From Erodium maritimum (Eukaryota; Streptophyta; Magnoliopsida; Geraniales; Geraniaceae), in NCBI GenBank assembly GCA_963921825.1, contig OY997590.1:51539039-51603038 (forward strand): a stretch of DNA of 64,000 nucleotides. The letters run 5' to 3'. This document shows positions 11,130 to 48,060 of this stretch, piece after piece. Made by a program: the position numbers and the translations under genes. The stretch's first letter is position 1; each line of letters begins with the position of its first letter. The notes beneath the pieces were generated by a model. It saw nothing but the letters and a program-made list of their open reading frames with translations, was not told where the DNA came from and ran no database searches.

Positions 11130-11310
11130 CTCTGTCAATATTCGCAAACTGGGATTCCTCTATTCGCAAACGACATTAACTGTTTCCTCATAAAACAATT
11201 CTGCAAACTAAAAATCAAAAACGGATTTTTCCTCTTTAGCTTATACGCAAACGATTTGTTAGTTATCCGTAGAAAATTATATCGTTATCCGCAAACTAGA
11301 AAAACTGTAT
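11130..11310. repeat. CGCAAAC motif cluster
   Basis: Copies such as ATTCGCAAACTG, ATTCGCAAACGA, TTCTGCAAACTA and TATCCGCAAACTAG, spaced mostly about 20-30 nt. Less regular than the arrays further right. Confidence 0.75.
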
Positions 11311-11392
11311 ACTCATTTGAGATACAGATGAAACAATTAAAGATTAAACATGTTTAGGGACCCACCAATCCAACTAAACCCTACATTTTGCC

Positions 11393-11401
11393 TATATATA
11401 C
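11393..11401 (+). promoter_or_regulatory. TATA box of small gene 1
   Basis: CCTATATATACAG lies 84 nt before the ATG at 11477. A CCAATC box (around 11365) precedes it by about 30 nt. Confidence 0.65.
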
Positions 11402-11476
11402 AGAAAAACTGCGCAAACAAAACATAAACTCAACATCAACTCTTAGCAAACCTCAACTCTCTCCCAATTATAAACA

Positions 11477-11791
11477 ATGAATGCTTGCAACACCGAGAAG
11501 GGTAAGAGCACGAACATCAATCTTCTAAATAAGGAAGAGGTGCTGAAGAGGGGAGATGCCATATTCGTAAAATACAACGTTCTTCTTAATGTTGAGAAGG
11601 TTACAATGAAACACAAGAACTTAAAGGTGATGATGCTGGAGGCAAAACTTGATATCGATCTTCTTGTGGTTGAGACAGCCAAAATCGCCGATAACGACAT
11701 GTCAGGTGACTGCATAACTATAGCCAAAGACCTCTTGTGCAGAGTGACAGAAGTTAACAGGGCACTGGATGTTGCTGTTGGTATGTTGTAG
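11477..11791 (+). CDS. Small gene 1 of element B (type II, 104 residues)
   Basis: An uninterrupted frame with its own TATA box. I do not recognise the family. It is Lys/Glu/Leu-rich with a long predicted helix (residues about 20-100). Its C-terminus (RVTEVNRALDVAVGML) resembles that of small genes 5 and 6 (KITEVIIAVNKAMKLVV), and all three carry MKHK- or IKHE-type segments, so I group these three as type II. Unlike genes 5 and 6 it lacks the RKRK-type basic head, having only TEKGKSTN. Function unknown. It is the first gene inside the left end of the giant element, and its position and family membership make it transposon cargo rather than a host gene. Confidence 0.7.
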   Translation: MNACNTEKGKSTNINLLNKEEVLKRGDAIFVKYNVLLNVEKVTMKHKNLKVMMLEAKLDIDLLVVETAKIADNDMSGDCITIAKDLLCRVTEVNRALDVAVGML

Positions 11792-11924
11792 TTGGGTACC
11801 AAAGAGTAAAGATGGCTTTCTTCTACTCCTTTTTTGTATGGTGCTCTTTTGTTCAACCTGTGTTTTGAATGAAAAGATTTCCTAGAAATATCATTTGCTC
11901 TATTTAGCTTTTCTGCAAACAATT

Positions 11925-12075
11925 TGTTCTTCATCCGCAAACTCTTATATCGATATCCGCAAAAGGCTTTCAGTTTGGTTTACTTTTTTGCAAATTGGAA
12001 TGATTATCTACGCAAACTGGAGTTCTTGTATTCGCAAACCAAAACAACTGTATCCACAAACCAAAATTAATCTTA
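11925..12075. repeat. CGCAAAC motif cluster
   Basis: Copies CATCCGCAAACTC, TATCCGCAAAAGG, CTACGCAAACTGG, ATTCGCAAACCAA and ATCCACAAACC between the small gene 1 terminator region and the acidic gene. Confidence 0.75.
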
Positions 12076-12140
12076 AACATGATTGATTTCATATATTGAA
12101 AATATTTACTTTCCAAATTTTTTTTTAAAAACTACAGTAA

Positions 12141-12755
12141 TTAAGCATCATCATCATCCCAGAAATCTTCTTCATCTTCAACAACTCCTTCCTCAGGATC
12201 CTCCACATATGGGTCTATGTTGTCTTCTTCTTCCTCTTCTCTCTCTTGCTCTTCTTCATCATCCTCTGCATGGACATCTTCTTCATCATCATCCAGCCAA
12301 TCTTCATCAACATAACAACTGTCTTCTTCATCATCCTCTGCTGGAGCAGGTCCGGGGGCAGGTGCGGGAGTAGGTGCGGTCGGAGGTTCTTCTTCTTCCT
12401 CATTCTCCTCTTCTTCTTCATCCTCATTCTTCTCCTTTTCTTCCTCATTGTCCTCTTCTTCTTCATCTTCTTTCTCATTGTCCTCTTCATCTTCATATTC
12501 ATCCGGGGGTGATTCATAATCAGGATCCCCCGGTTGAGGAATGTCGTACTCATTAATGAGAGGGTCATCATCAGAGGAGGAGGAGGAGGAGGAGGAGGAA
12601 GAAGGATTCAGCCTGCGCCTCTTTTAACAGACGTCGTCGTCGTCATCATCACTACTGAAGATTTGTGATGGTAGAGACTTGCATTCGTAAGATTGCCATT
12701 TGTCTCCATCACTGTTAGAATACAGAATAGATGGAGACTTGGGAGATGATGACAT
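12141..12755 (-). pseudogene. Acidic Ser/Asp/Glu-rich protein gene with an in-frame TAA
   Basis: Read from the ATG at 12755-12753 the frame is MSSSPKSPSILYSNSD, then SSDDDDDDVC, then TAA at codon 44 (12626-12624). It continues in the same frame as KRRRLNPSSSS..., DDDPLINEYD, a 60-residue stretch dominated by Glu/Asp, PTAPTPAPAPGPAPAEDD, and ends EEDFWDDDDA with a stop at 12141-12143 (205 codons). A KRRR patch next to acidic/Ser runs suggests a nuclear protein. The acidic tail of such proteins often contacts basic partners, here possibly the small basic proteins, but that is inference. The stop is a clean one-codon lesion, and GC-biased repeats in the region generate many meaningless overlapping frames. 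A smaller remnant of a similar protein lies at 37080-37195. Confidence 0.65.
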
Positions 12756-13340
12756 GGCTACCTACTACGATAGGGATGATGAGAAAATAGTTGATTTGTG
12801 TTTAAATATAAAGATACCAAAAGGGTATCCGAAAATTTGGAGAAATGGAACGACGCCATTAATTTGGGAAGCTTTTCGTTTGGCGCGAAGAGATTTTTGT
12901 AATGATGACAGAAGATATTGAAATGAAAGGGCGAAATGAAAGGGCGGTTGTAGTCAGATCAAAAATGAAACGACGGTTGGGTGTATTCACATCAAAAATT
13001 AAAAAACATGATTACCTTACTTTTTACTGCATCCTTGGCACGTGTTATAACCTGTTGAATTTCGGAAATTAATATTCTGAAAATACAAAATTCTAGTTTG
13101 CGGAAATAATGATTCTGTTTTACGTAAAATGGTTTACCAGTTTGCGGAAATCACAATGACGTTTTGCGAATAATGGACATTCCGTTTGCAAAAAATGTTC
13201 TTTCATCACATTACGTGCGTGCTTGGCACGTGTGCCACCGAAAACCCTAAATCAATACCCCTATAAATATACCAATTCTATCACCGATAAAAAATTATTC
13301 ACTCACATCTCTTCTGAATTATTAGATCATATAGACGAAA
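12756..13340. other. Intergenic: first copy of a tandemly duplicated promoter block
   Basis: 12790-13010 and 13920-14095 are homologous: both have ATTTGG(A/G)(G/A)AAATGG(A/G)ACGACGCC, TTTTCGTTTGGCGC and GATGACAGAAGAT. Both are followed by inverted-orientation GTTTGCGGAAAT motifs (13095-13190, 14180-14280), a GGCACGTGT G-box and a TATA box. The open frame at 12700-12921 in this block is not supported as a gene. Confidence 0.7.
13262..13270 (+). promoter_or_regulatory. TATA box of small gene 2
   Basis: CCCCTATAAATATACC lies 79 nt before the ATG at 13341. A GGCACGTGT G-box-like element lies about 50 nt further upstream (around 13214). Confidence 0.7.
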
Positions 13341-13607
13341 ATGGAATCATCATCAAAAAGACTCAAAATCGAAGTTCTTGACAAAGAACATCTTGCATCC
13401 GTGCGTGAGCTTCGTGACCTGAAGATGTCTATCATCAAATCCCATTTGATTTTAGTACAAAACAAGGTGGCCAAACTGATGGCTGAATTGTATGCAGAAG
13501 ACATATCCAACGCGGATGAAGAACACAAGGAGTGCGTGAAGAGCATGAGGAAGACTCTCCAGTTGTATAAGGCTATAATTGGAACCGTTGTAGAAGAGCG
13601 CATCTAA
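13341..13607 (+). CDS. Small gene 2 of element B (type I, 88 residues)
   Basis: Begins MESSSKRLKIEVLDKEH, giving a basic, nuclear-signal-like head. A helical core follows: LRDLKMSIIKSHLILVQNKV, then AELYAEDISNADEEH and MRKTLQLYKAI. No family known to me. It is the upstream member of a tandem pair with small gene 3 (about 60% identical by eye; ATG-to-ATG distance 1075 nt), and the duplication includes the promoter. The shared type I core pattern (LR or IR, then about eight residues, H, then KV or QV and (A/D)E(L/M/I)) also occurs in genes 4, 7 and 8. The frame is intact. A 3' region with TGTTTTGTGTTGGCTTTTG-type sequence is shared by both copies. Confidence 0.72.
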   Translation: MESSSKRLKIEVLDKEHLASVRELRDLKMSIIKSHLILVQNKVAKLMAELYAEDISNADEEHKECVKSMRKTLQLYKAIIGTVVEERI

Positions 13608-14149
13608 GGGATTACATGAACTTTCCCTTCTGTTTTGATGTGTTTTGTGTTGGCTTTTGGTTCTTCTGTATAATGTCGTTATTTTTGTTGTTCTTTCTGA
13701 CTACAGATGAATCAATGAAAAGCTTTTTTTTAAGTAAATATGCACAAAAATTTAGACAACATAATACAATATACTACCTAGATTGCAAAATGAACACAAT
13801 GATTCCGCAAACAAGATACCTTGTATTCACAAACTCGTAAATTCACAAACGCAAACTTCATAATTCGTTATTGTTTAATATTTGAGAAAATATTTCGTGT
13901 GGCTCAAGAGATATTTACCAAAGATAAAAATATCAAATGGGTATCAGAAAATTTGGGGAAATGGGACGACGCCATTAATTTGCGAATCTTTTCGTTTGGC
14001 GCAAAGAGATTTTTGCAATGATGACAGAAGATTTGAAATGAAATCGCGAAATGAAAGGGCGGTTGCGTATATTCACATCAAAAATTAAAATCATGATTAC
14101 CTTACTTTTTACTGCATGCTTGACACGTCTTCTACCCTGTTAAATTTTG

Positions 14150-14290
14150 GAAATTAGTATTCTGAAAATACAAAATTCTAGTTTGCGGAAATAATCCTTC
14201 TGTTTTACGGAAAATGGTTTACCAGTTTACGGAAATTACAATGACGTTTTGCGTATAATGGACATTCTGTTTGCAGAAATGTGCTTTCAT
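14150..14290. repeat. GTTTGCGGAAAT motif cluster (inverted orientation)
   Basis: GTTTGCGGAAAT, GTTTTACGGAAAAT, GTTTACGGAAAT and GTTTTGCGTATAAT upstream of small gene 3. The matching cluster upstream of gene 2 is at 13085-13190. Confidence 0.75.
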
Positions 14291-14345
14291 CACATTACGT
14301 GCGTGTTTGGCACGTGTCCCACCAAATACTCTAAATCAATACCCC

Positions 14346-14354
14346 TATAAATAT
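14346..14354 (+). promoter_or_regulatory. TATA box of small gene 3
   Basis: CCCCTATAAATATACCCC lies 70 nt before the ATG at 14416, again preceded by GGCACGTGTCCC (around 14310). Confidence 0.7.
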
Positions 14355-14415
14355 ACCCCTTCTATCACCAATGAAAAATTATTCACACTCAAATTATCAG
14401 ATCATATACACGAAA

Positions 14416-14682
14416 ATGGCATCATCATCAAAAAAAATCAAAATGGAAGTTCTAGCCAAAGAACATCATGTGTCCGTACGTGAGCTTCGACATCTGAAGA
14501 TGTTCATCATCAAGTCACATTTGATGATAGCACATGACAGGGTCATCAACCTGATGGATGAAATGGAAGAAGAAGACATATCCAACGCGGATGAAGAACA
14601 CATGGATTGTAGGGAAAGCATGGCGAACAAACTCTTGAAGTATAGGGCTGCACTTAGAATCATTGTGAAAGAGAGCTCCTAA
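14416..14682 (+). CDS. Small gene 3 of element B (type I, 88 residues)
   Basis: Starts MASSSKKIKMEVLAKEHH. I chose this ATG because it aligns with that of small gene 2; an in-frame ATG at 14371 lies within the region corresponding to that gene's leader. The core is LRHLKMFIIKSHLMIAHDRV, followed by DEMEEEDISNADEEH, like gene 2. Basic head, acidic middle, helical tail; function unknown. Second member of the first tandem pair. The frame is intact despite divergence from gene 2, which suggests selection or recent origin. Confidence 0.72.
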   Translation: MASSSKKIKMEVLAKEHHVSVRELRHLKMFIIKSHLMIAHDRVINLMDEMEEEDISNADEEHMDCRESMANKLLKYRAALRIIVKESS

Positions 14683-14849
14683 GGGATTGCTTGTACTTTC
14701 TCTTCTGTTTTCATGTCTTTTGTGTTGGCTTTTGCTTCTTCTGTTTGATGTCGTATTTTTTGTTGTTCTTTCAGACTCCAGATGAATCAATGAAAAGCTT
14801 TTTGTTTATCTAAATATGCATTAAAATTGACACAATATATTACAATATA

Positions 14850-15095
14850 CTACTTAGTTTGCAAAATGTATACAATATTCCGCAAACAAGATACCTTTTT
14901 TTTCTCAAACTCGTAAAGCCACAAACACAAATATCAAATTTCGTTCTTCTTAAATATTTGATAAAATATTTCATGTGGCTCGAGATAAATTCCTAGTATT
15001 CAAAATGTACATTATAGTTCCGCAAACAAGATGCCTTGTATTCTCAAACTCGTAAATTCCCAAACGCAAACTTCATAATTCGTTGTTGTTTAATA
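14850..15095. repeat. CGCAAAC/TCTCAAAC motif cluster
   Basis: Copies such as TTCCGCAAACAAGAT (twice), TTCTCAAACTCGTAAA (twice) and CCCAAACGCAAAC. Part of the block duplicates the 13800-13910 sequence downstream of small gene 2. Confidence 0.7.
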
Positions 15096-15378
15096 TTTGT
15101 GAAAATATTTCGTGTGGCTCGAGAGAGATTTACCAAAGATACTAATCAGACAATGGTGAGATTTGGAAGTGACGCGTGTCAAGACACGATTGTATACTGC
15201 TAAGAGCCTGCGATTTTTATTTTGAGGATAATTTTATAATTGTTTGAGAATTTAATACATATGAAATACAAATCGTCAATATTGGATAAAACACTTGATA
15301 TTCTGACCTTGAAAAGTAACTACCCACTAACCCCATTACTTTGTTGAAGATTACAATAATACCCCCTAGGACCATTGC

Positions 15379-15386
15379 TATAAATA
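15379..15386 (+). promoter_or_regulatory. TATA box of small gene 4
   Basis: GCTATAAATACCAC lies 79 nt before the ATG at 15458. Confidence 0.7.
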
Positions 15387-15457
15387 CCACTACTGAGTAA
15401 CTACTTTCACACATCTTTTACTCTTCAACTCACTTCAACTCAAAAAAAGCAACAAAA

Positions 15458-15718
15458 ATGGATCTTGAATGGTCTCGCATGGAAGCAGAGGCTGAAGCCA
15501 GGCGTTTGGCTTCCATTCACCATTTATGGAAGCTCAAATACACAAAAATCCAATACAATATGATGATGATTGATGCACAGGTGGTGAAGCTCCTGGCTGA
15601 AATAGAAACGGACGAAAACCTTACCTGGAACACAGAAGAAAGAGCTTCGAAAGAACGCATGCTTGAGAAACTGAGGGAGTATCAAGAATTCCTCGGGAAA
15701 ATAACTGTAGATCCCTAA
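15458..15718 (+). CDS. Small gene 4 of element B (type I, 86 residues)
   Basis: Single intact exon. The head MDLEWSRMEAEAEARRLAS is less basic than in its relatives. The core LWKLKYTKIQYNMMMIDAQV, then KLLAEI, TEERASKERMLEKLREYQEF, keeps the type I helical pattern and is probably a coiled coil. No known family. It is the last small gene before the nested Gypsy insertion, which begins 170 nt after its stop and may have removed or displaced its 3' region. Confidence 0.7.
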   Translation: MDLEWSRMEAEAEARRLASIHHLWKLKYTKIQYNMMMIDAQVVKLLAEIETDENLTWNTEERASKERMLEKLREYQEFLGKITVDP

Positions 15719-15888
15719 GCCACATCCAGAAGAAGATTGGTGGTATCTAGTTTTTCATGCATGTCTTCTTTTATGTTTTTGTTTGGTGTTTCACACACCC
15801 CATCTTTTCGTAATGAATCTATAAATATTCTCAAACTAGATGCTGTATTTTCTCAAACCATGCTTTCTGTATTCTCAACATGACTGAC

Positions 15889-17989
15889 TGTAAAGTCCTG
15901 AAAATTTAAATTGCCTTTTACGGGTTTTAATTGACGGGATCGGGAAGCGGTTCGAAAAGTCTGAAAAAAAAAAAAAAAAAACTTTTGGGTCGGACCGGGT
16001 CGGACCGGACCCGGCCCAAGCTGCAGACCCGGCCAGGCAGGACCCGGCTCCCACCTGAGCAGGCCAACAAGCGTTTTGAGCCGTGCGGCCCAAATCCCAG
16101 CCGAGGCCCAACTCGGGTTAGCCCAGGGTATTTAAACCCCACCCCTCCTCCTCAAACCCTAATCCCTCTCACTCTCTTCTCCTTCAGCCGCCCATCTCCT
16201 CTCCCGACCTCACCCTCGCCGGAACCACGTCCGGCCAGCTCCTCTCGCCGTCCAGCCACCACGCCGCCGCCACCACTCCCTCTCCCGTCTCTGGCTCCGG
16301 CGACCCTCACCTCCCACGTCCGACCCTCCTCCCTCTCTGGTTCCTCTCGACCTCGCCGGCCACGGCGTGTCCCGCCGCCACCTCCCTCCTCCACGCCTTC
16401 TTCTTCGTTCACCTCCCTCACCAGTCCGGCCATCGATTCCGGCCGTCCCGAGCCCGAGCTCGGCCATCGATTCCGGCCGTCCCGAGCCCGAGCTCGGCCA
16501 TCGATTCCGGCCGTCCCGGGCCCGAGCTCGGCCGTCTCCGACCTCCCCTTCGCCTCCGTCTTCTCCTTCGTCCGATTCACGGCCACGCCACCGTCAAGCC
16601 GCCGCCCCCGTCTCCTTTCCCCGCTCCGTTCTGCCACCACCGAGCCCGAACAGCCACCTCCGCCCTCACTCAGTGTCTCCGGCCGTGTTCAACGCCGAAC
16701 CCCTCTCGGCCTCTTTCCCCCGTCGGCGCCGGGATTGTCTACCCTAGACAATCTCGCCGAATCTGGTGAGACCCGTCCGGATCTGAGGCGGAGTGCCCCG
16801 CCGAGCCCACGACCACCACCACCGCCTCTCCCTCCGCCGTGCTCCACCACCTCGCCTTCCACGGTGAGATTCTCACCACGAGGTTTGGTCGCCGGCGGCG
16901 TCTCCGTCGGTGGCCGGCCGGTTTCCAAACCGAGCCCCTCGTTTAAGGTTTCCCGTGTTGTTAAATTCGAGTCGATGTGGATCTGATTGGGGGAAGTTAT
17001 GTCGGTTAAACCTGCTAAAGAATCGTTTAAGTTTTAGAACTGATTTTGAATCGAAAAGGGAAATTGTTGAATCAAAATCAGATTATAATAAAAGACGGTT
17101 TTGGATCTGCTTTGGATGGAATCGGAATCAAGGTTTTGGAAAGAAAAGGTTGTAAACGAAAATCGATTTAAGAAAAAGGGGATTTAAAATAAAAAGGACT
17201 TAAAATCAAGTCGGTTTTAAATCGAGGAATTTTGTGAATCTAAGCTGTAAACGGGATTTAGGGACGGTTGTTCAAAAACCGAACCAAATTCATCTTGGGC
17301 TCAAAGATCGGAACAGAATCAGATTTGAAATAAAAAAGGAATTCGTTTTAAAATAAAAACCGTTCTATTTTGAATAAAGGGTTATTAATCGGATGTAGGA
17401 ACGACTCTGGAACTCTGGGTAAAATGAACTGCTATTTAGATTAACCTGGGAACCGCCTCTAATTTATGGCTTTCGTGTTATCCTTAGCGTCTGACTTCGA
17501 TCGAAGTGAAGCCCGGAGGTAGCGAGCCAGAACGTCAGCAGCTAGGAAGCGTAGCGGTTGCTCTTCAGTTGAGGTACGGAAAAGTAGCCGGATCTCGGCC
17601 CAGACTAGGGAAAGTTAACAGTAGAAATTGCATGTGACACCGGGGTGTCGTGGGTTGAGTAGGTTTATTTAATTATTAGAAAAGCATGATACGAGATTGT
17701 AGCGTTTATGAGAAAGGCATGTGACACTTAGTAGTGTCGTAGGATCAGAGAACTTAGCGATAATCGAATTACTGGAGGCATATGACCATGCCCGGAGGTT
17801 GATTGTTTATTTTGGTGTCTTGGGCGGCCTTGAGAGCCCGTGTTTTATTATCGAGTTTTGGGTGGCCTTGAGAGCCCGTATTATTATTGTCGAGTCTTGG
17901 GTGGCCATGAGAGCCCGTGTTATTATACGTGTTTTCTTATTCTAAACGTTCGCGTCCCGAGTTCGGTTTACTGAAATCGGGGCGTGACA
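15889..17989 (+). repeat. 5' LTR of the nested Gypsy element
   Basis: Starts TGTAAAGTCCTG and ends GGGGCGTGACA (2101 bp). It has a TATTTAAA box (around 16128) followed by a CT-rich start region, and a GC-rich part that contains a 33-bp unit (GATTCCGGCCGTCCCGAGCC...) repeated about three times (16432-16530). Further on are repeats of GGGTGGCCTTGAGAGCCCGT (17820-17920). A long frame over the GC-rich part is probably not a gene. Confidence 0.95.
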
Positions 17990-17992
17990 GCT

Positions 17993-18005
17993 TGGTATCA
18001 GAGCT
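17993..18005 (+). other. Primer-binding site of the nested Gypsy element
   Basis: TGGTATCAGAGCT, complementary to the 3' end of initiator tRNA-Met, lying three bases after the LTR. Confidence 0.93.
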
Positions 18006-19354
18006 CGAGGTTTCACACCTCGGACTGTCCGTCAATTAGGTGGGGAGAGTCAAGTCAGTAAAGTCCCGTCGTGCGTTGGGTACGTAGGTCGGGAACCGTG
18101 TGTAAACCCTTAATGTCTTGAGTCTTGTTTTGTCTGTGTGTGTGTACAGTACGGGGCTACTGGCATACTGTTTGTGTGTGCTGCGTGAAACGTTTTTAAG
18201 TTGTCGCGGGTCGACTCAGGAGCGCTCCTGTAGTCGAACGTGACGGTGCTGATGTCAAGTCGGTACAACGTAGTTCGGGGACGCCTGGACCGGGTTGTAA
18301 CCACCTGATGTCAAGAAATGAGGTTTTAATGAAGTAGAGAAAGCTTTAAAAATTTGATTGTTTTGATGTTGTTTGACGTCGTGGGCGTTCGCGTTTGATT
18401 TTGATTGGCCCTGAGGCCGTATTTGATTTTGGTTGGCCCGGTGGGCGAGTGTTGTTGTGTTGTCTTTTGGCCGTGTCGGCTCGTGTTTTGGTTGAGGTTG
18501 AATGCCCTTCTTGGTCTGTAAATCGTGGTGCGTGTGTTTGCTGATTTGGTAGTCAAGCGTGTGTGTCGTTTAAGGCAAATTTTGGGGTTAAAACGGGTTA
18601 AGGTCCGAGTTAGAACCGAGTTTGGAAAACAGGTCTGCGCGAGTGTCACGGATCCTGTCACGGATCCGTGACGGACCAGAGAGTTCTGGCAAATTTTAGA
18701 TCTTCTTCACGACTCCGTGACCCCAACCGTGACGGGGTCTGTCACGAGTCAGTGATCCCTGTCCTTCTCACCGTCTTGTTTGTGCAAGTTGAGTGTTGGC
18801 TTTGCGTGGCGACGTTCACGGTTGTGTTGGGGTATTGAGGTTGTAAGCAATAGTAGTCGCTGATTTGAGAACATAATCCCCATGTCGATGATTCCCTTAC
18901 GTAAAAGAGTGTTTGAGGTGTTGACGACTTGAGTAGTGTGACGTGTTGGCAGTAGGTTTAGGATGGTGTTTGCCCTGACTAGAGTGGTAAGTCCTTGGTG
19001 CGTTACTAGTATGCCATAATCGAACGGGTGTCCGTGGAGGTGGGCATAACGCGCATCTCCTTTACTACTTTTCCCGCAAGGGACGAGTAGCGAACACTGG
19101 TTTGGTTGCGGAAAGTTATAAGTAAGTGCATAAAGGACCGGATGAGGGCTTAGTGTACGTGTGTGTGGTTAAATTTGAGATCTTTCCGCCTTCGTGTTAT
19201 GATCAAAGTATGTTTAGCGTGAACGGTGTGGCGTTTAATAACAAGTACGTTGGGGTAGACGCAGACCGTGTGAACGTTAGTGTGTTCGAGCTGTTGTCCT
19301 TATTTGAGTTCGCAAACTGAACATTTGCGTGTATCCGTGCAGAGGATACCGATT
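18006..19354 (+). other. Untranslated leader of the nested Gypsy element
   Basis: About 1.35 kb between primer-binding site and Gag, with no supported gene. Short GTGTGT-rich and CACGGATCC/GTGACGG-type repeats occur (18640-18770). Confidence 0.75.
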
Positions 19355-20782
19355 ATGGCTCGCGGAAGGCGCGGACGAGCGTCAGGAACACGGGGTCAGG
19401 CTCCCACGCGAGGCCGACGGGGGCGGTCAGCAGGGGCACTAGGGAGGGTGCCAACCGTCGAGCCCGCCGACTACGCGGAGGCACAGGGCACTCCCGTCGG
19501 AGAAGACGGGAGAAGTGATGCGGGGCCATCTGCAGGCACCCCCAGTGTTCCGCCAGTCACAGACCCTCCAGTGATGACTGCCCTGGATGAGCTTACCAGG
19601 ACCGTTCAGAGTTTGGTGGCGGTCATCGCCAGCCGAGAGTCGGCTTCGCCAGCACCAGAGGCAGCCGCAGTCCCGGTGAGGGCCGCTCAGACAGAGGATC
19701 TTACCTCCCGAGCGCTACTCGATTTCCTGAAGCTCGGGATACCTGTTTTTGTCGGGGAGCCAAATCCCGACCTAGCCGAGCGATGGATAGAGCAGGTCAC
19801 ACGAGACCTGGACACTTTGGGTGTCGAGGATGGCCGTCGGAGAGTGTCCTTCGCGGTCCATCAGCTGAGAGACAGCGCCTACCACTGGTGGGGGCGGGTG
19901 AAGGACACAGTCGGATACGACTACAGCGTATTCCAGGAGGTATTCATGGCACAGTACTTTCCCGAGTCGGCTCGGCTGGAGCGACATCGGCAATTCTTAG
20001 ACCTGGAGCAGGGAGAGATGACAGTGGCACAGTACGAGGCCAGGTTCACAGCCTTGACCAGATTCGCGCCAGAGATGGTGATGACCGAGAAGAACCGTTG
20101 CTTGCGGTTCCAGGGAGGACTGAGTCTGGGAATTCGGAACCAGATTCTCGCCTTGAGACTGAGGAAGTACACAGATCTCGTGGACACCGCAGCGACGGTG
20201 GAGCAGGGTATCCGGGATGCGGACAGGACCCGTGAGGTCCGACAGCGGCCGACCAGCTTTGCAGGGCCGTCCGCGTCACAAGACCCTCGAAGACAGAGGA
20301 CCACGGGATCCTTCCGACCACAGGCTCATCAGGATGAACCGAGACAGCAGGGATCGATGGCGTCAGTGGGGCCAGTCGCTTCGAGGAGACAGCTGGGATG
20401 CTTTAACTGCGGGCAGCCAGACCACATGCAGCGGGAGTGTCCGATGAACACAGAGCCAAGGGCCGACGAGACCAGGTGTCACCGGTGCGGCCACGTTGGG
20501 CACACTATCGGCCAGTGCTATGAGCCGTTGGGGGCAACGACAATGCGACAATCACAGCAGTCGCGCCCTCGTCAGAGCCAACGGTCGAGGTTTTCGCAGC
20601 CGTCGACGAGCGGGCCATCTCCGAGACAGCAGCGGAGCTATGGTTATCCAGCAATTAGTGCGCCGAACCAGAGGCAGCAGGCGCCAGCGAGGAGAATGTA
20701 CGCGGTTGCCGATTCCCGGACCCCGGGATCCTCTACCTACCGCGAGACCTATGAGGGTACGTGTTTATTGTGCCTTTTATGA
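19355..20782 (+). CDS. Gypsy Gag with two CCHC zinc knuckles
   Basis: 475 residues from MARGRRGRASG. The order is an Arg/Gly-rich head, a Pro-rich linker, a retrotransposon-gag domain (RWIEQVTRDLDTLGVED, YHWWGRVKD, FMAQYFPESARLERHRQFLD, MTVAQYEARFTALTRFAP), then CFNCGQPDHMQRECP and CHRCGHVGHTIGQCY, both C-x2-C-x4-H-x4-C. The end (MYAVADSRTPGSSTYRETYEGT) is where protease would start in a full Gypsy polyprotein, but the frame then stops after CLLCLL and 3' sequence begins. The deletion junction is therefore just after residue 468. Gag would form particles and package RNA. The frame is completely open, so it may still make protein. Confidence 0.93.
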   Translation: MARGRRGRASGTRGQAPTRGRRGRSAGALGRVPTVEPADYAEAQGTPVGEDGRSDAGPSAGTPSVPPVTDPPVMTALDELTRTVQSLVAVIASRESASPAPEAAAVPVRAAQTEDLTSRALLDFLKLGIPVFVGEPNPDLAERWIEQVTRDLDTLGVEDGRRRVSFAVHQLRDSAYHWWGRVKDTVGYDYSVFQEVFMAQYFPESARLERHRQFLDLEQGEMTVAQYEARFTALTRFAPEMVMTEKNRCLRFQGGLSLGIRNQILALRLRKYTDLVDTAATVEQGIRDADRTREVRQRPTSFAGPSASQDPRRQRTTGSFRPQAHQDEPRQQGSMASVGPVASRRQLGCFNCGQPDHMQRECPMNTEPRADETRCHRCGHVGHTIGQCYEPLGATTMRQSQQSRPRQSQRSRFSQPSTSGPSPRQQRSYGYPAISAPNQRQQAPARRMYAVADSRTPGSSTYRETYEGTCLLCLL

Positions 20783-20809
20783 GTTTGTTCTAAATTTCGC
20801 GGACGAAAT

Positions 20810-20828
20810 TCCTTTAAGGGGGGTAGAC
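20810..20828 (+). other. Polypurine tract of the nested Gypsy element
   Basis: TTTAAGGGGGGTAGAC directly before the 3' LTR; it primes plus-strand DNA synthesis. The related elements on the right of the window have the same arrangement. Confidence 0.88.
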
Positions 20829-38785: not shown

Positions 38786-38793
38786 TATAAATA
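38786..38793 (+). promoter_or_regulatory. TATA box of small gene 8
   Basis: ACTATAAATACCCCCACCCC, 98 nt before the ATG at 38884, matching the gene 7 arrangement. Confidence 0.7.
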
Positions 38794-38883
38794 CCCCCAC
38801 CCCTATATCACTGAACCCTACAACTCTCTTTCAATTTAAAATTCTCTTCTCAAATAACTTCAAACCACCAGTCTGCAAAAGCG

Positions 38884-39201
38884 ATGACCTCAAACAGGAA
38901 ACGCACCAGAGGGGAAGGAAACGTTTGCAACGCAGAAGCTATGGAACGTACCAGAGAGGAAGCCGCTTTGGAGTCTAAAATACAGTTACGCAAAATAAGG
39001 TTGGCACTATGCCAGATCCACTTTTTGCTGATGCAGGAGAAGGTGGAAAGCCTTGCCAATGAACTGTAAGTGCTTGACATGAGCAACTCGACTGAAAAGC
39101 ACAAGGAGGATAGGGACATGATGATGGCGACACTGAAAAAGATTCAGGACTTCTTCAAAACAATTGAGGTAGACATGGAGCAGGGCACATCCGACCCATG
39201 A
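38884..39201 (+). pseudogene. Small gene 8 of element B (type I), one in-frame stop
   Basis: Head MTSNRKRTRGEGNVCNAEAM and core LRKIRLALCQIHFLLMQEKV align closely with small gene 7, with an internal deletion of ten or so residues after residue 28. At codon 62 (39067-39069) a TAA stands where gene 7 has GAA. Behind it the frame stays open and homologous to the normal end (VLDMSNS, LKKIQDFFKT, GTSDP, stop at 39199-39201). A one-base change thus truncates it to 61 residues. Confidence 0.72.
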
Positions 39202-39324
39202 AGGATGTAGTTATATTTTCCCTATTATCATGTCAATCGTCTTTTTATGTTTTTGTGTTTTGTGTTGAAAACTTAGTTTCTCAGTGAATGTATGACTAGT
39301 ATCTGCTTATCAATATTAAAGTCA

Positions 39325-39725
39325 CCTACATTTAACTCGCAAACGATATTGCATAATCTGAAACAAGGAACCCCACTTTCTCAAACCAAGGATTGACAAT
39401 TCGCAAAACAGAAAAACAGTTCCGCAAACTAGACACTGTATATTAGCAAAACACAAAACACATAACCTCAAAAAACAGAGGAACCCAGGTTTCGCAAACC
39501 AAGGATAGCCTCTTCGCAAAACAGAAAAACAATACCCGCAAACTAGACACTATACATTCGCAAAACAGAAACACATAACCTCAACCAACAACTTATTTAT
39601 CCTACAATACAGCATATTCAGAAACAAAAGATCTTATAAATTCTGAAAATAGTACACAGATTATTCTCAAACAATATATCATAACTTCTCAAAAAAAAAA
39701 TTGTCATTTCTGAAAACAAACACCA
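39325..39725. repeat. CGCAAAC/CGCAAAAC motif array between small gene 8 and the Ulp1-like gene
   Basis: Dense and two-part: 39400-39460 and 39490-39580 both read TTCGCAAAACAGAAAAACA, then CCGCAAACTAGACACT, then TCGCAAAACA or TAGCAAAACA, then CATAACCTCAA. A higher-order unit of about 95 nt has therefore been duplicated on top of the 22-nt step. Confidence 0.85.
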
Positions 39726-40439
39726 GTAATCAAAAAGAGTAATTCACTAAGCTTTATGACGTTCGCATGGTAATAAGGCTTTATACTTGGCACTAAATTT
39801 GAATGTGGCCTTCTTCTTTTTGAAATAATCTTTGATATTCTCCTCAATTCCTACCCACAGGCTGTTCTTCTCAAATGTGATCAACTTAAAGAGGAATCTT
39901 TTCCTCAATAACTCGATTTGTGCAGCCTACAAAATCAAAATTTAAAGATCAAATCTATACTCATTGCTATATACTGACAAAGAAATAATTGTTGGTTTAA
40001 CTTACATCATTAACGTTCAATTCTCCTGCCCAATTCCCATTGCCAAGATACGATTCCATGTGCCACATAGCATACACCCCACAATCCATATGATTGTCGT
40101 TAGATTCCCATGGTACATGTAACCGATCAATCCTACCGTTGAAAATTTTCTGAGCTAGAGCTTTATCAGTTTTTGATATGACCTTGCAAATTTTAGACCT
40201 CTACGCAAATCAAAAACACCAAAGAAAAATAAATAAAAACAGAAATGAATAGATAGACAGTAATCAAACACATAATGAAAAAAGAATACGTACCAATGTA
40301 TAGTGAATTTTTTCATAACGAACATCATCATCAACCGTTCCTTTCACATTGTCAATAATATTTGAATTTCCATTCTTCATATCGATGCATAACAGTGTGA
40401 AGTGATTGCTCTTAAAAGCAACTATGAAAACCTGTAGAA

Positions 40440-40740
40440 AATATATAAAATGCATCAGCATATTAGCAAAACACATATTCAATATCAGCGAACTACATTT
40501 TCATTATGAGCAACCCAGGGAAACTGTTTCTCAAACCAGGGTGCGCATATCAGCAAAACATGTATTCAGTTTCCGCAAACTTGATAGAAAATATTCGCAA
40601 ACAAGAAAATCCATACCCTCAAACCAGATATTGCGTGTCTCAAACAGGTAAACGTTATTTCTCAAGCAAGGGTGCGTATAGACGCAAAACATACAAACCT
40701 TACCCGCAACCAACATATTGAATATTCTAAAACCAACCAT
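40440..40740. repeat. CGCAAAC motif array in an intron of the Ulp1-like gene
   Basis: TATTAGCAAAACACAT, TATCAGCGAACTAC, TATCAGCAAAACATG, TTTCCGCAAACTTGA, TATTCGCAAACAAGA and TAGACGCAAAACATAC. The array occupies the whole intron between the exons at 40431 and 40754. Confidence 0.85.
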
Positions 40741-41691
40741 GTATTATACTTACCAAGTCCAACTTCTTCCATGAAAAAGAAGGGAACTCCTTAGTTTCAA
40801 ATTTGAAAATTTCGTCAAAAGCTACATCTTTTTTATGTGCCGAAAGCGTAGCCTACAAAATAAAAATCTTAATAACAAAAACATATTAAAATAATTCAAA
40901 CTATAAACGTAATCAACAAAAAAATTGCACAAACTATCCTTACACTAAGAGTAGCTGAAAAGAAGAACCGGTTAGGTGATGAATCACTCTTGATAGTTTC
41001 TAGATGATTCAGATAGTGACACTGTCACGCCCCAATTTCAGTAAACCGAACTCGGGACGCGAACGTTCAAAATAAGAAACACTTTGAAACCAATTCCATT
41101 AAAACACTTACAATACCAGTTTAGTTCAACAAAATAATATTTACAGCTTAAAAATACGTCCCAACACGTGGACAAAAGTACAAGGTATCCGTCACTAGAC
41201 TCAAAAGACAAACCCGGACTCCGCCCCTAGCTCCACAAGCTTCGAGAGCTCACCTAGTCCGTCCCACGAACAGTACCTGTAAGAAAAGCAGCTAGGGGTG
41301 AGCGTTCGCTCACCACCACGGATAACAGACTGACTACGGCATAATTAGCAGACAATGCCGGTAACACCAATAATAAAGTCTAAACCGGGGGACACTGTCC
41401 CCAACCCAAGGACTCTGACTGATCATACACCCACTGTTACCTTCCTTGACCAACTCAATAGTAAATAACACACAACACGTAAAGTAGACCCGACACAACG
41501 ATCACGACCTCTCCCAAGGACTCGAAAGAAACGACGCAACACCAAACAAGATCACAAAGGATCACACACCAAACAAGATCACAAAGGATCGCAAACCAGT
41601 TGCTCAGTAACCTCCCTCACCAGACTCAACCTCAAACTCGTAACGTAAAACCGACACCACCAACAATGACCTTCCCCAAAGACACGAACCC

Positions 41692-41935
41692 GGATCAGGC
41701 TAGCCGAAGAATGCTCAGAACCTGCCGAGCCTCGTACACGGATTAGGCCAGCCGAAGAATGCTCGTAACCTGCCGGGACCCGGTCACGGATCAGGCTAGC
41801 CGAAGAATGCTCATAACCTTTCGGGATCCGGACACGGAACAGGCTAGCCGAAGAATGCTCAGAACCTGCCGAGGCTCGAGTTTGGTCAGGCCAGCTGAAG
41901 AATGCTCGTAACCTGCCAAAATCCACACCACTCCC
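41692..41935. repeat. 48-nt tandem repeat in the solo LTR
   Basis: Five copies of a unit with GGCTAGCCGAAGAATGCTCA and AACCTGCCG, step 48 nt in the first copies. Confidence 0.85.
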
Positions 41936-42059
41936 CGACACACAGTCGGTTCGGGCAAACACAACCACAAACACAAGAAAGTTCAACAAACAGGCACTCA
42001 AGGCCACTCAAGACACCTCAACAGTAAACCTCGGACTCAACAGCCCCACAGGCACTCAC

Positions 42060-42400
42060 GGCTTCCCAAGACACCAAAATGACAATACGGGCTCTCATGG
42101 CCACCCAAGACTCAGCAATAACCAACACGGCTCTCAAGGCCACCCAAACTCGACAATGACCAACACGGGCTCTCAAGGCCACCCAAACTCAACAACAATT
42201 AACACGCAACAACCTCCGGCATAAACAATGCCTCCAACAGTCCTAAGATCGCTAGTTTCACAAACAACCTCCGGGCATGGTCATATGCCTCCAGTACTCC
42301 TAATATCAACAAGTTCACGAACAACCTCCGGGCATGGTCATATGCCTCCAGTAAATCAATTAACGCTAAGTTCTCTGTTCCTACGACACTACTAAGTGTC
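42060..42400. repeat. Tandem GGGCTCTCAAGGCCACCC and CCTCCGGGCATGGTCATATG repeats in the solo LTR
   Basis: Four copies of the first phrase (42085-42185) followed by two complete and one partial copy of the second (42215-42360). The same two blocks occur in the LTRs at 56440-56810 and 60100-60500. Confidence 0.85.
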
Positions 42401-45400
42401 ACATGCTTTTCTCTTAAACGCTACAATCCCGTATCATGCAATTCTAATATTCGCTAACCTACTCAACCCACGACGCCCCAGTGTCACATGCATTTCTACT
42501 GTTAACTTTCCCTAGTCAGGGACGAGATCCGGCTACTTTTCCCTACCTCAACCGAAGAGCACCCGCTACGCTTCCTAGTTGCTGACGTTCTGGCTCGCTA
42601 CCTTCGGACTTCACTTCGATCGAAGCCGGACGCTAAAGATAACACGAAAGCCATAATTAGAGTCGGTTCCCAAGTTAATTTAAAGGTCACAATTAATCCC
42701 GTTTAAAACCGACAGTTGTTCTTTAAATTCGAGCGGGATAAAAGCGGGGTTGCGGCGAATCGGGTTTGAGTACCCGAGCACCGAAACCGGTGCATGCGAG
42801 GCACGGTCCCATGCACGAGGTCCGATTCAGCGGTCCGCTTTTGTTCCTTTTTAAACCCAAATAGCAGTCCATTTTAACAGCCCGATTATTCGTTCCACGC
42901 TCAACAGATCAAGATCCATTTTAAATCAAACCTGATTGTTCCTTTTAAATTCCTTTTTAAAACTAAAGTCGTTTTAGTTCATTTTCCTAACAGATTTGTT
43001 TCTCAAAACTCCTCGATTCAAAACCGTTATTAACACCAAATTGATTTTAATTCCCTTTTATTTTAAAACTGATTTTCCTTTTTAATCACAAAACCGACAT
43101 CTTTTCTGTTTTCCTTTTTGGGATTGATTTTCAAAAGTTCCGATTCACAACAACACTTTGAATCCGAATTCGTTTTATTTCCTTTTCCAATTCTGGAGTT
43201 ACAGGCTCGGGACAAAACAAACAACAACGAAAACGAACGGTACGGAAATTAAACCGGCCGCCGGCGAATACGTCGCCGGCGACTAAACCCCCAGGCACGA
43301 ACCTCACGTGGAGGGAAGGACGGCAGGGCGGTGCACGGCGGCGGTGGACGTGAACTGGAGAGGAGGGAGGACGATGGTGGCCGGATTCGGGAGCTGTGGC
43401 ACCGGCGACCGGAGTTGAGAGAGGGAGATGAGGGAGGAAGGTCGGGTGAGGGCGTGAGGAGAGGACAAAGAAGACGGGGTGAGGGAGGGGTTCGGCTGCC
43501 CCAGAAACAAAGGAGGACAAAAATACTGAGAAGAAACCCTAAAAACGGGTTTTATACCCGGGCCGGTTGTCCTTTGGGCCGTTGGCGAAGCGGGCCTCAG
43601 GCCCAAGCGAGGGGAGAGGGGCCTGGCCGGGCTTGCCTGTCTGGTCAGGCCTGAACGATCCAATCCTTTGTTTTTTTACACGACTAAAGAATTTAATCGA
43701 ATTTCATCCTCGCCTTTACCAAAACCGAATTAGATTTCAACCTCGACGTTCCGAACGATTAAAATTTAATTTAACTAACCTTTTTACCGAAGCGGTCTTC
43801 ACAGACACCACCCATTAATGGTTTCCAGTTCAATCCATGCATCCTTTTTGAAAGAAATAAAGTCCCCCTTGGTAATATAACTTTCAGAGCACTGAAACAT
43901 AAAAGCCCTGCATTCACAGAGAGAAAAAGCCTATTCACTGTATTTGCAAAAATAAAATATGAAAACAAAATAAGGGGAAAAACATATTTTACTTACCAAT
44001 CCTCGGTTTTGCTTTTATTCAGCACCCAATCAGCAACACAATCCTCAACCTCCAGAATATCGGACCAATAATCTGTTTGACGATCAACGTACGGAGAACA
44101 CAGAAATTTAGACGGTGCAATCAAACGAGGTAAAGGTTGTTTGTCTGGGGTTTCCCTTAATAAAGATGCCTTGCTATATCCAATTGACGTAAAACTATTG
44201 CCACTTGCAGTAGGTTTCTTAACAACAGGGGGATTTTTCTTAACACCACCTTGAGCTTTTTTTGCTGCAACAGTACGGGGTACTTTCTTCTCGGGGACAG
44301 CAGCGGGGCCTTTCTTACCGGGTGCACGAGCAGGACCTCTCTTCTTCGGTGGATCAATAATTGAGCCAGGCTCCACATGACCAACACCATCAGTCGACTT
44401 CTTAGGAGGATGCATGAGCCCTTTTTTATCAGGAAAAGGTATGCCAGCAGGGCGTTGTACTATGGATTCACGCAATATTGCCATTTCAAGTTCAGGATTC
44501 TCGTCAACTTTCTCAGAGACCTCTTTCCCACCAATAGAACGATTGATATTTTGGTCAACCCGTGCAGTAACAATTGGCGGGGGTTGAGTCTTGCAAGCTT
44601 GATTAACAGGTGGATCATTGTTGACATTTTTTTCGACAACAATTATATTGAGTGGCTCGGGTTGCTCTTGAAGTGTCTGAAAAAAGTCATTGACAGACGG
44701 AGACCCGTTGACATTTCCTTGACTGCATTCTATAGTAAGTGGGTCTGATTCCACTACAAGAGCCCAACAATCATCTTTGTTAACAACATCGGGAGCTTCA
44801 CATTCCGTGATTGGATTATCAACAACCATGTCACAAGCTTGCTTCCCAATACCATAAGCAACAGAAATAGCGTCAAACTCATCGCCAACACTGTTATTCT
44901 TTTCTGGCTCAGTTTGTTCTGCAACAATATTATCCACAGGGGCTGCATCATTACTTGCGAACAATTTCCGTACCACATTATCGCATTCAGGGCTTGACAA
45001 TGTAGTGGATCCAGCAGGGCATGGTGAAAGAACATTGGCAGGCGATTTTTGGGATGGTGAAAGAAGTCTGAACGATGGTGGAGTAACGGCACGAGCAGGT
45101 GGCTTCTCTCCTCTGTTGTACCCTTCCCCAACGCGTGTTGCTGCTTCAATCAATTTCTCAATGGTCTCAATAACCCCGGGTAGATTAAACCATGAGTCTT
45201 GTGACAGCAACACACTTTGTGTGTCAGGCATGGCATCTTCGGGATTTTTTTTCCCGGTCAAACCATCAAACAGGGTTGACATTGTCTTGAAACACTCAGT
45301 ATTGGGATCAGCGATGTGCCCTTCAACCAACAACTGATGCCATTCCAAAAAACCTTCTACAACCTTATTCCCTGCTATTCGAAACCTTTCTGCAATCCTC

Positions 45401-45429
45401 TGAATACGATAAAAAGAAGCATGTTAATG

Positions 45430-46020
45430 TGATTAAATGCAAACAAATAAAACACAGGGTATCCATCAACTACGAAACACATCTTCAAACCAAAATGTGC
45501 ATATTTGCACACAATAAACCTAGGCACAAATCACATGCAGCAAATACTCAAAACTGTTTCGCAAAACAGAGTGCGCATACTCGCAAAACAAAGAATCACT
45601 ATCTGCAAACTAGGTAAAGCATACACGCAAAACATAAATTCACAATCCGCAAACAGGGTAAGCATATTCGCAAAACATATATTCACAATCCGCAGACTAG
45701 GTAAAGCATATTAGCAAAAAGGTCAATCAATAACAGAGAATGCATCAACTAAAACACCAAAATGAGCATATTTTAAAACTGTTCCTATCAGAGTACGCAC
45801 TATCGCAAAACATACAATCACTATCCGCAAACTATTAAAACCATACTAGCGAAGCAAAAATTCACTATCCGCAAAACACAATATCACTAAACGCAGAACA
45901 TATATTCACTATTCGCAGAACATATATTCACTGTTCGCATAACATAAATTCACTGTCCGCAAACCAGGTAAAGCATATTCGCAGAACATATGTTCACTAT
46001 CCGCAAAAAAAACAAGTCAA
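45430..46020. repeat. Most regular 22-nt CGCAAAC array of B (intron of the Ulp1-like gene)
   Basis: Successive core G positions 45805, 45827, 45849, 45871, 45893, 45915, 45937, 45959, 45981 and 46003 are each exactly 22 nt apart. Units look like TTCACTATCCGCAAAACAT with variation of the CG core (CCGCAA, TCGCAG, ACGCAG, TCGCAT). The stretch 45540-45720 has more copies with slightly looser spacing. Confidence 0.95.
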
Positions 46021-47399
46021 TCAATAAACCTAACTGTACATTTGAAAAACATAATTCCCCCACAAAAAAAATTAATTAAATAATAGAGTACCTCTGCAGA
46101 ACACCTTTCACTATGAAAAGGGGGGGTATTCGGGGCCGGCGGATCTCCACCATTTCTATCACCACTTTCATTATTCCTATTTACGTTAGGTGGTGGATGC
46201 TGAGCGTCATTATCTTCCTCCCTAACACGTGGAGGACCCTCCCTCCGTATGTGACCCATTCCAAATGACTCACACTGTAATTAATCACCGACTCTTCTGT
46301 TCACCAATGCAGTATTCCATCCAATCAAAGACGGCCACGCCCTAGGAACCTCACACGTGCTGACTTCAACACGATCAAGATAAAACAACTGCATCATTGA
46401 AAGGAAAAGACATGTCACATGAATATAACATAACAGTTTATTAGATATAAAATGCAACACGTTAAAATGATAAATAAACTTACCAACAAGAAAGTGATTG
46501 GTCCAGAAAAATTCTTTGAACCATCGGGTTTTAACCAGGCTTGTTTTGTATCCACAAGTCTCTTGACTAAGAACTTGCACCAATTAAAATCTTGTATGTG
46601 AGATACATCAACGATAGAACGGAAGCATGACTGATTCACATAACCATCATTCCCGGAATCGATCATGCAAGTGACAAACAACATCATGAAGTTTCTTTTG
46701 AAATCATCTCCCCCTTCAATTTGCGTCTTCATCTCATCAACCAACTGCTTACTGGTGATAAGACGCTTGAACTCGCCTTTGTCTTTTGTATCGAACTGCT
46801 GCTGCCACAATTTAAGTTCATCAGTGCACAGGGTGGCTCACTTATCTACTATGACGTCGCGCACACCATTTGGAATGCCCAAATTTTCATGCTCTTCATT
46901 CTCTGTGATACGCAATTTGGCATCTGTCAATTCCATTGATGAGCTAAGATGGTTATACTTAGACACCAGGTAATATCCAATCTTGCTTAGAATGATCTTC
47001 ACAGCCAAATGAAGAATGTGCCCAAACCCAATTTCGCGCACTGTTTCTTGTTGGCGTTTATTCAAACTCTCCACCAACTCAACCAATCTCTTTGGAGATG
47101 ACCTGGTCTTCAAAATAGCATCCACGCCAACCTTATCAGATAACGGGACAACTCTATCAGACTCACAACCCTTGGTGCGCTTAACATTCTTCTTCTCAAC
47201 AGCTAATTCTCCACATCTCTTCTTTCCAGCTTTAGCAGGTCGGACAGCTACATCGAGACATTCTTCTTAATTGAAAGTCTTTGTTTATTTTTATTCTTAA
47301 TAGACTTCTGCTCCTTCAACATATTAGCAAGAGTCGTATTTCCTTCACCAATATCAGCCTCTGTGGATGGCCTATCCATTAAAAGAAGAGGTACCACTG

Positions 47400-48060
47400 T
47401 ATCCGGAGTTTTATCTATAATTCGCAAACAAGGGTTAGCATTTCAGCAAAACAGACAATATACAAAAGCATTGCATATTCACGAGAAAGAAAAACAGTGC
47501 CCGCAAACAAGATACTATATATTCGCAAAACATAAATTCACTATCCGCAACTACATAAATCTAATTCGCAAAACATATATTCACTATCCGCAAACAAGGT
47601 AAAGCATATTATCATAACAGGTCAACACAATAACAGGGTATGCATCAACTACAAAACACATCTGCAAACCAAAATGTGCATATATGCATACAATAAACAT
47701 ACTCACATATCAAATGCAGGATTATTCAAAACTGTTTCTCAAACCATAGTGCGCACACTCGCAAAACATAAATTCCTTATCCGCAAATTGGGTAAAGAAA
47801 AATCGCAAAACATGAATTCATTATTCGCAAAACAGAAAAACAAAGTCCGCAAAACAAGATACTCGCAACACAGAAACCCCAAAACCTCAACCAACAACTT
47901 GGTTTTCCTCAAAAGTAGATCAAAATCATCTCATAGTTGAATAATTTCATGGTATTTCATTATTCACTTGAAATGGTATACACTAAAAGCAAAACACAAG
48001 CGCTCTGAAAACATAGCACCTATAAAAAATCCGCAAACTACAAACACTATATTCTCAAAT
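47400..48060. repeat. CGCAAAC motif array at the 5' side of the Ulp1-like gene
   Basis: Many copies (CCCGCAAACAAGATACTATA, TATTCGCAAAACATAAATTC, TATCCGCAAACAAGG, and so on). 47620-47760 is a diverged duplicate of 45460-45580 (TGCATCAACTACAAAACACA, CAAACCAAAATGTGCATAT). No exon recognised here except a possible small first exon around 48060-48125. Confidence 0.85.

Follow-up and report, generated by a model that had tools for sequence, protein, structure and literature searches.

In a 64,000-nt stretch of Erodium maritimum DNA (contig OY997590.1, positions 51,539,039 to 51,603,038; hereafter the window), we found that the non-coding DNA of a large transposon, element B, is filled with short motifs of the CGCAAAC type that recur at a step of 22 nt. 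B is a Mutator-like element (MULE) set in (TA)n, and arrays of the same geometry are present in miniature inverted-repeat transposable elements (MITEs) beside it. Arguing from sequence and from analogy with the VANC proteins of Arabidopsis, we suggest that the arrays may be docking sites for a protein encoded by TA-targeting MULEs, with a VANC-like anti-silencing role, a proposal that we regard as evenly poised. Protein binding is favoured because the step is constant, the core is family-specific and phased sites are missing from coding DNA, and because the arrays are kept in MITEs too small to hold a transposase, with the CGC and CTC types largely homotypic.

Phased motifs in the non-coding DNA of element B

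Outside its nested retrotransposons, B (19.8 kb) holds 83 CGCAAA sites, against a mean of 11.1 and a maximum of 24 in shuffled sequence, and 25 CGCAAA pairs spaced 21 or 22 nt, against none in 100 shuffles. Beyond B (1–9000 and 51100–64000; 21.9 kb), 11 sites were present for 9.6 expected, with no pair at 21–22 nt, and the retrotransposon stretches (17.1 kb) likewise had 6 sites for 8.2 expected and no such pair. An original prediction, made from the letters of the window, had anticipated this enrichment and spacing but had run the motif through the whole span, which is broken by the nested retrotransposons with their lack of phased motifs. With slightly different limits for B the count was 81 sites, 76 of which fell outside the listed coding segments (read by eye from open frames, a few being off by some bases), and none of the 81 was a phased site within such a segment. 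Neighbouring sites up to 30 nt apart were spaced 22 nt (21 times) or 21 nt (4 times) and at no other distance, and for 41 of the 81 a CGCAAA or a form with one mismatch stood exactly 22 nt downstream. In a 6-mer scan over lags of 15–39 nt, CGCAAA at 22 came top or joint top in three slices of B, while in the five stretches outside B lag 22 was never among the six best entries, and three of these stretches yielded no entry. Most clusters in B keep a single orientation.

The predicted array of ten positions exactly 22 nt apart was recovered, shifted by one base: it starts at 45804 and runs to 46002, rather than 45805–46003. Nine of its ten cores read CGCA, the remaining one (45848) being AGCGAAG. 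The predicted steps of 22, 21, 22 and 21 nt also hold, at 38343, 38365, 38386, 38408 and 38429, where the cores are, in order, CGCGAA, CGCAAA, CGCAGA, CGCAAA and CGTAAA, and all 13 looser clusters that had been listed have CGCAAA or TTTGCG within 500 bp of the start given for them. At ±22 nt from a site, information was highest in the CGCAAA columns (0.3–0.9 bits); the TAT[TC] ahead of the core and a few bases after it reached up to about 0.45 bits, and the rest carried little. The single predicted core, CGCA(A)A, stands as the main word of a wider phased set that includes CTCAAA, TGCAAA, AGCAAA and CACAAA. That the repeat is not a simple satellite is true of B, where the core stands out and linkers vary, but not of the neighbouring MITE1, whose units are repeated in tandem almost perfectly over their full length.

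Position within B bears on the main rival explanation, in which the FAR1-domain transposase itself binds both the terminal inverted repeat (TIR) and the array, so that the array sites are accessory transposase-binding sites that raise transposition. The transposase owes its place as main rival to the single-base difference between the TIR core GCGAACC and the array core GCAAACC; within B, GCGAACC is confined to the ends, and the arrays of the MITEs lie near element ends. Yet, of the 81 B sites, a single one is closer than 500 bp to either end, 59 are found at depths of more than 2 kb, between genes or within inferred introns, and the array core of another MITE, MITE3 (TGATAA), is unlike its TIR core, GAGAACC. 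Subterminal repeats of CACTA and hAT elements (TnpA and Ac sites) consist of many short motif copies bound by an element protein; those sites lie near the ends, whereas B's run throughout the element, and the MITEs are not decisive on this point. We consider binding by the transposase unlikely.

Motif versions and arrays across the genome

We counted pairs of exact words at 22 nt across the genome (763 Mb, 40 contigs), with the reversed pattern as control. CGCAAAC formed 4,758 pairs at exactly 22 nt (control 6) and 6,103 pairs at 10–40 nt (control 159), so that about 78% fall at exactly 22 nt, and CTCAAAC formed 1,536 (control 38). Mixed pairs numbered 935 for CGC–CTC (control 10) and 591 for CTC–CGC (control 2), a total of 1,526 against the 3,246 expected under random mixing. 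Because both types are phased and mixed pairs fall below random mixing, we read the main motif as CKCAAAC (K = G or T), arranged in largely homotypic arrays. The comparison of leading dinucleotides covered 7 of 16 (CG, CT, AG, GG, TG, CA and CC), and CAAAC pairs led by AG, GG or TG (9 combinations; 333 against 195 in the control) or by CA or CC (4 combinations; 376 against 199) reached merely 1.7–1.9 times the control.

The arrays had been predicted as a property of B. They do occupy its non-coding DNA, but they also occur in the separate MITE1 (12 CGCAAA, with 7 pairs at 21–22 nt). MITE1 (1.2 kb) and MITE2 (~0.4 kb; locus L001 at about 1444–1830 and 1833–2215, and locus L007) have the TIR core GGTGCGAACC, (TA)n flanks and CGCAAAC arrays with other linkers, and both are shorter than a transposase would require. 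In a by-eye reading of C1, 1–20.36 Mb, linkers of the MITE2 type were found in 4 CGC clusters and 12 CTC clusters, none being shared. More CTCAAAC arrays, with another linker class (such as CACATCTCTCATATT), lie, for example, at 48221843–48222606 and 41026778–41026960 of C1 and probably belong to another MITE family.

Two further MITEs carry other words. MITE3 has 23 TGATAA sites, with steps of 22 nt (11 times), 23 nt (4 times), 24 nt (once) and six longer ones, and MITE4 has 12 ACATAC sites, with steps of 22 nt (6 times), 23 nt (3 times), 27 nt and 48 nt; their best combinations of 6-mer and lag gave 11 and 6 pairs, respectively, and none reached 4 in 60 Markov sequences of each. Genome-wide, GTTGATAAA formed 12,281 pairs at 22 nt against 0 in the control, and ACATACA formed 2,769, a count for which the reversed pattern, being identical to the word itself, provides no valid control. 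Judged from these words, the step is constant (22–23 nt in MITE3 and MITE4) while the motif differs from that of B. B, MITE1, MITE3 and MITE4 stand side by side with (TA)n tracts alone between them (9173–10508 and 48556–51083), and a MITE1-like stretch lies close to B in one of the other copies (C7) as well.

These families bear on explanations that involve no specific protein. If short A-tracts every two turns bent the DNA or excluded nucleosomes, A-runs at about two turns would be expected, as are seen in the CGCAAA and TGATAAAA arrays, the ACATAC arrays fitting less well; such bending leaves unexplained both the lead of CG and CT over the five other dinucleotides tested and the homotypic arrays, and we deem it very improbable. 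A small-RNA role, in which the 22-nt units would template or receive 22-nt small interfering RNAs (siRNAs), had been offered by the original prediction alongside binding of an element-encoded protein. The number 22, on which that role was solely based, is a size class of plant siRNAs, and the arms of the MITEs are inverted repeats capable of forming hairpins. However, because linkers vary in B, its units would yield different RNAs, the steps of 21–22 nt in B and 22–23 nt in MITE3 and MITE4 are those that a helical step would give, none of the patterns observed calls for a 22-nt RNA, and we know of no siRNA pathway that needs a genomic 22-nt periodicity. The sequence patterns favour the protein-binding alternative, and the small-RNA role, left unsupported, seems to us barely credible.

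Organization and genes of element B

Pfam matches to the FAR1 and MULE transposase domains (Table 1) mark B as a MULE, whose termini are ~60-bp inverted repeats, GGTGCGAACC...TGCGAACC, with (TA)n on both flanks (TIR alignment). The FAR1 exon has at least 139 scored matches in the genome, mostly 90–97% identical, and we analysed the best 10 of the 139 besides the window's own, skipping one with a stop. All ten match B colinearly, without its inserts at about 15893–31476 and 41023–43803, and some hold other inserts. As the ten colinear copies are without B's nested retrotransposons, we count B as an element of ~19.7 kb excluding them, and by its sequence features we class it as a MULE of the Jittery/MuTAnT kind. 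The nested stretches (15893–22900, 23000–31476 and 41022–43804) include two elements whose repeats are 99–100% identical where compared, one of Ty3 type with gag and one of copia type with RVT_2, and a fragment resembling a long terminal repeat and akin to repeats at 55.6–60.9 kb. A 62-bp piece with sites 22951 and 22995, between two nested retrotransposons, is apparently a remnant of B, because the copies show a matching 62-bp gap. Near the cluster of elements there is apparently a host gene with a Core-2/I-branching enzyme domain (3192–3842, minus strand, E=1.4e-58).

The candidate binders are the product of an Ulp1-like gene and the small helical proteins. The window's copy of the Ulp1-like gene has an in-frame stop in the exon at 46418–47266, and the C-terminus of its product gave a weak match to an Ulp1 protease (C48, E=0.0094) that fell short of the cut-off. 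The spliced product had no protein database match at E≤0.001 (7,994 candidates scored), and no credible PDB match was obtained with its protease part (best E 0.34). The AlphaFold 2 (AF2) model of the N-terminal exon reached a predicted local distance difference test (pLDDT) score of 40 and was unusable, so that the protein could not be placed by its fold. Frames with DUF1985, a VANC domain, are abundant genome-wide (150 scored of 841 candidates, all of those listed being above the cut-off), and the genome may thus also hold VANDAL/KI-type elements; since that search scored the best candidates only, the absence of B among the matches listed proves nothing.

Seven small open frames lie in B (11474–11788, 13335–13604, 14335–14679, 35537–35908, 36253–36720, 37685–38056 and 38815–39066), six of them forming three duplicated pairs, and none of the seven matched a credible Pfam family. 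The frame at 36253–36720 holds a duplicated relative of the 106-aa helical protein (repeat analysis), and in a diverged MULE (L039) a frame that looks similar, by eye, to these small proteins follows the transposase. A very acidic frame with E/D runs (12144–12623, minus strand) may be non-coding. The C-terminal transposase exon had no credible Pfam match.

Table 1. Positions in the window of element B, its genes and motif clusters, and the adjacent MITEs
Feature	Position	Strand	Basis or remark
Element B, FAR1/Jittery-type MULE in (TA)n, interrupted by retrotransposons	10508..48556	.	TIR alignment; 10 copies
Left TIR of B	10508..10567	+	
Right TIR of B	48497..48556	-	
FAR1 DNA-binding domain exon, transposase	32400..33233	+	PF03101 E=1.2e-15; at least 139 genomic matches
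MULE transposase domain exon	33297..33650	+	PF10551 E=5.2e-21
C-terminal transposase exon	33733..35007	+	CxC..C..H-like, zinc-knuckle-like residues by eye
Small helical protein, 106 aa	35591..35908	+	AF2, two long helices, pLDDT 86
Ulp1-like gene, arrays in inferred introns and upstream	39760..47266	-	Several exons, by eye
MITE1, TA-flanked, B-like TIR	9267..10452	.	22-nt CGCAAACCATATACACTAAATC arrays in inverted arms
MITE3, TA-flanked, TIR with GGTGAGAACC	48578..49942	.	TGATAA array
MITE4, TA-flanked, TIR with GGTACAAACC	49949..51047	.	ACATAC array
Cluster, 5 CGCAAA	11143..11412	+	
Cluster, 4 sites	11936..12033	+	
Cluster, 3 sites	13097..13163	-	
Cluster, 2 sites	13806..13850	+	
Cluster, 2 sites	14182..14248	-	
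Cluster, 3 sites	14881..15065	+	
CTCAAAC pair, second motif version	15830..15873	+	22-nt step
Two CGCAAA pairs ahead of transposase gene	31483..32254	+	22-nt step
Clusters, 5 minus-oriented sites	35051..35404	-	
Clusters, 7 sites	36088..37071	+	
Cluster holding the 22/21/22/21 array	38197..38434	+	
Cluster, 7 sites	39338..39564	+	
Cluster within inferred intron of Ulp1-like gene	40574..40688	+	
Main array, inferred intron of Ulp1-like gene	45560..46008	+	10 CGCAAA; ten phased positions 45804–46002
Arrays, 10 sites, upstream of/in first part of Ulp1-like gene	47423..47853	+	

Evolution of the arrays in copies and relatives

Diverged relatives of B carry an altered motif. In one MULE (L039–L041) the transposase is 79–80% identical in nucleotides and the left TIR holds GGTGCGAACC; in another (L042) it is 80–85% identical and accompanied by part of the Ulp1-like gene at 73% identity. 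CGCAAA is scarce in both (4 in 22 kb and 2 in 10 kb, respectively, the first figure being 3 when counted over 10 kb), CTCAAAC being present instead, and further links at 21/22 nt appear in L039–L042 when a reading by eye admits degenerate cores. Among the ten copies of B, the transversion G2T in the core (71) outnumbered the CpG-decay products C1T (45) and G2A (31), the copies not being independent. A faster evolution of the exons of the ULP region, suggested by the protein search, is not one that we press: it is partly frameshift, and their nucleotide identity to the window across the ten copies is 93.8–98.3%, against 95.8–98.8% for the transposase.

Within arrays, 7 of the 9 indels of at least 15 bp measured 21–23 or 43–45 bp, compared to 7 of 29 elsewhere. 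Such gain and loss of whole units, together with the near-perfect repeats of MITE1 and the modest conservation of the core, is what one would expect of neutral tandem repeats, produced by slippage or unequal exchange of a 22-nt unit in AT-rich non-coding transposon DNA and amplified by MITEs. We nevertheless hold this to be rather improbable, given that units in B share a core with weaker linkers, that three unrelated cores (CKCAAAC, TGATAA and ACATAC) all stand at about 22 nt, that the CGC and CTC types are orderly, and that the other tandem repeats of the window heading the same 6-mer scan have lags of 34 and 38–39.

Several results weigh against a protein-bound, anti-silencing array. Conservation of the core among the ten copies is modest (differences of 1.8% in core, 3.4% in linker, 2.2% in other non-coding and 1.65% in coding DNA), and CGCAAA ranked 5th lowest in difference among 26 words with one CG; columns with fewer than 5 sequences were dropped, as were, for the region percentages, those with a majority below 60%. 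The arrays show no shortage of small indels, with 36 in 1.9 kb as against 183 in 17.8 kb. Since neutral decay is expected after insertion, this comparison of copies neither proves nor refutes function. The single-step variants of MITE1 in the window are C1T/TG (5) and G2A/CA (1), as from CpG decay. Exact CTCAAA links at 21/22 nt number two in L042 and one in L039–L041, and the 22-nt signal in L039 is weak (z 0.7–3.7 over five stretches). The genome counts sum multi-copy families rather than independent events, a copy number that the reversed control ignores, and homotypy, too, could stem from family descent. We took the N-terminal exon of the Ulp1-like product to be like DUF1985/plant-mobile-domain proteins, a likeness that failed its sole test: a search of the spliced product for DUF1985 (PF09331) found no match at E≤1, the other frames of B being partly covered. 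Finally, the portions of the VANC papers considered here describe no regular step for VANC motifs (PMC5735166, PMC10398659).

Proposed mechanism and comparison with known systems

We infer that a protein binds the arrays, that B encodes it and that it acts against silencing. The arrays would then be cis-acting sites for a DNA-binding protein of this MULE group, one unit of which would recognize a short core sequence (for B and its MITEs, mainly CKCAAAC). With a spacing of two turns (22 bp), neighbouring units would share one face of the helix, allowing many to bind side by side, and because the core varies from family to family at an unchanged step, each protein could find its own elements, whether autonomous or not. 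By analogy, its likeliest job would be that of VANC, namely to cover non-coding regions and to block or reverse silencing.

Sequence-specific anti-silencing by transposons has been shown for Arabidopsis VANDALs (PMC5735166, PMC10398659), where motif arrays are the tested anti-silencing targets of VANC21 and VANC6 (Hosaka 2017, PMC5735166; Sasaki 2023, PMC10398659). In the parts of these and the other papers on which our comparison draws, VANC targets are short non-coding motifs of one orientation, with two versions and differences between related families (PMC5735166), and a 2026 review (PMC13317346) states that an Ulp1 domain is present in some VANC genes. B has in common with VANDAL21 and VANDAL6 a dense short motif, mostly in one orientation, in non-coding DNA including introns and upstream regions, as well as gain and loss of tandem repeats, two motif versions and altered motifs in relatives. 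One unrelated element, AT9TSD1, shares a motif (PMC5735166, PMC10398659), which we also count among the likenesses. Unlike VANDALs, B is a FAR1/TIR MULE that targets (TA)n, with DUF1985 undetected in its Ulp1-like product; unlike VANC targets, the arrays keep a strict step of 21–23 nt and extend to MITEs, and they are known here from sequence alone. TIRs in the VANDAL clade are absent or short and degenerate, some members having TIRs (PMC6446971), whereas B, compared by features rather than by a tree, has a FAR1 and MULE transposase and ~60-bp TIRs. Because of these TIRs, the FAR1 transposase and the lack of a DUF1985 match, we file B outside the VANDALs, as an element that may work like a VANC system, as the analogy suggests, and not as a member of that clade.

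The closest likenesses in structure are to MuTAnT of Medicago (PMC4486113) and to gSaTar and rSaTar of guayule and rice (PMC5907723), which are, like B, MULEs or MITEs in (TA)n microsatellites and cluster around these as in B's neighbourhood; the side-by-side set of B and MITEs recalls the modular arrays of guayule and rice (PMC5907723). MuTAnT has a Jittery-like transposase, as does B (PMC4486113), and B shows the FAR1 and MULE domains, TIRs, (TA)n insertion and non-autonomous relatives of a MuTAnT-like element. AutoMuTAnT, at 4.9 kb with a single open reading frame (ORF), is unlike B (PMC4486113), and phased motif arrays are not mentioned in the sections covered for MuTAnT or gSaTar/rSaTar (PMC4486113, PMC5907723). 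The Jittery clade (MULE group 36) has an N-terminal FAR1 domain, TIRs of 39–292 bp and a C-terminal SWIM/CCHC zinc finger, and B is alike, but the dicot/monocot subgroup has one ORF, while B has added genes and arrays (PMC6446971). Among the papers listed in our literature searches, none dealt with arrays of phased CGCAAAC or of 22-bp units in MULEs; as supplements lay outside these searches, an earlier description is possible.

More tentatively, and with some doubt, we propose that the clan of TA-targeting MULEs and MITEs shares a geometric address code, in which a core particular to each family (CGCAAAC, CTCAAAC, GTTGATAAA or ACATACA) recurs at intervals of two helical turns. Homologous element-encoded proteins that differ in base specificity would assemble in phase on the non-coding DNA of their own family and would shield its members, autonomous and gene-less alike, from silencing by a route independent of VANDAL/VANC. 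If the arrays act like VANC targets, this strategy would be present in another MULE clade and would extend to gene-less MITEs. Mapping of proteins to motifs was left to future work by the authors of the VANC studies, in the parts of their papers drawn on here, and the CGC and CTC types, together with the further motif families, would offer ready specificity contrasts for it. The fixed geometry, if the proposal is true, would be predictive, in that any non-coding word phased at 22 nt within a MULE would point to the target of a binding protein.

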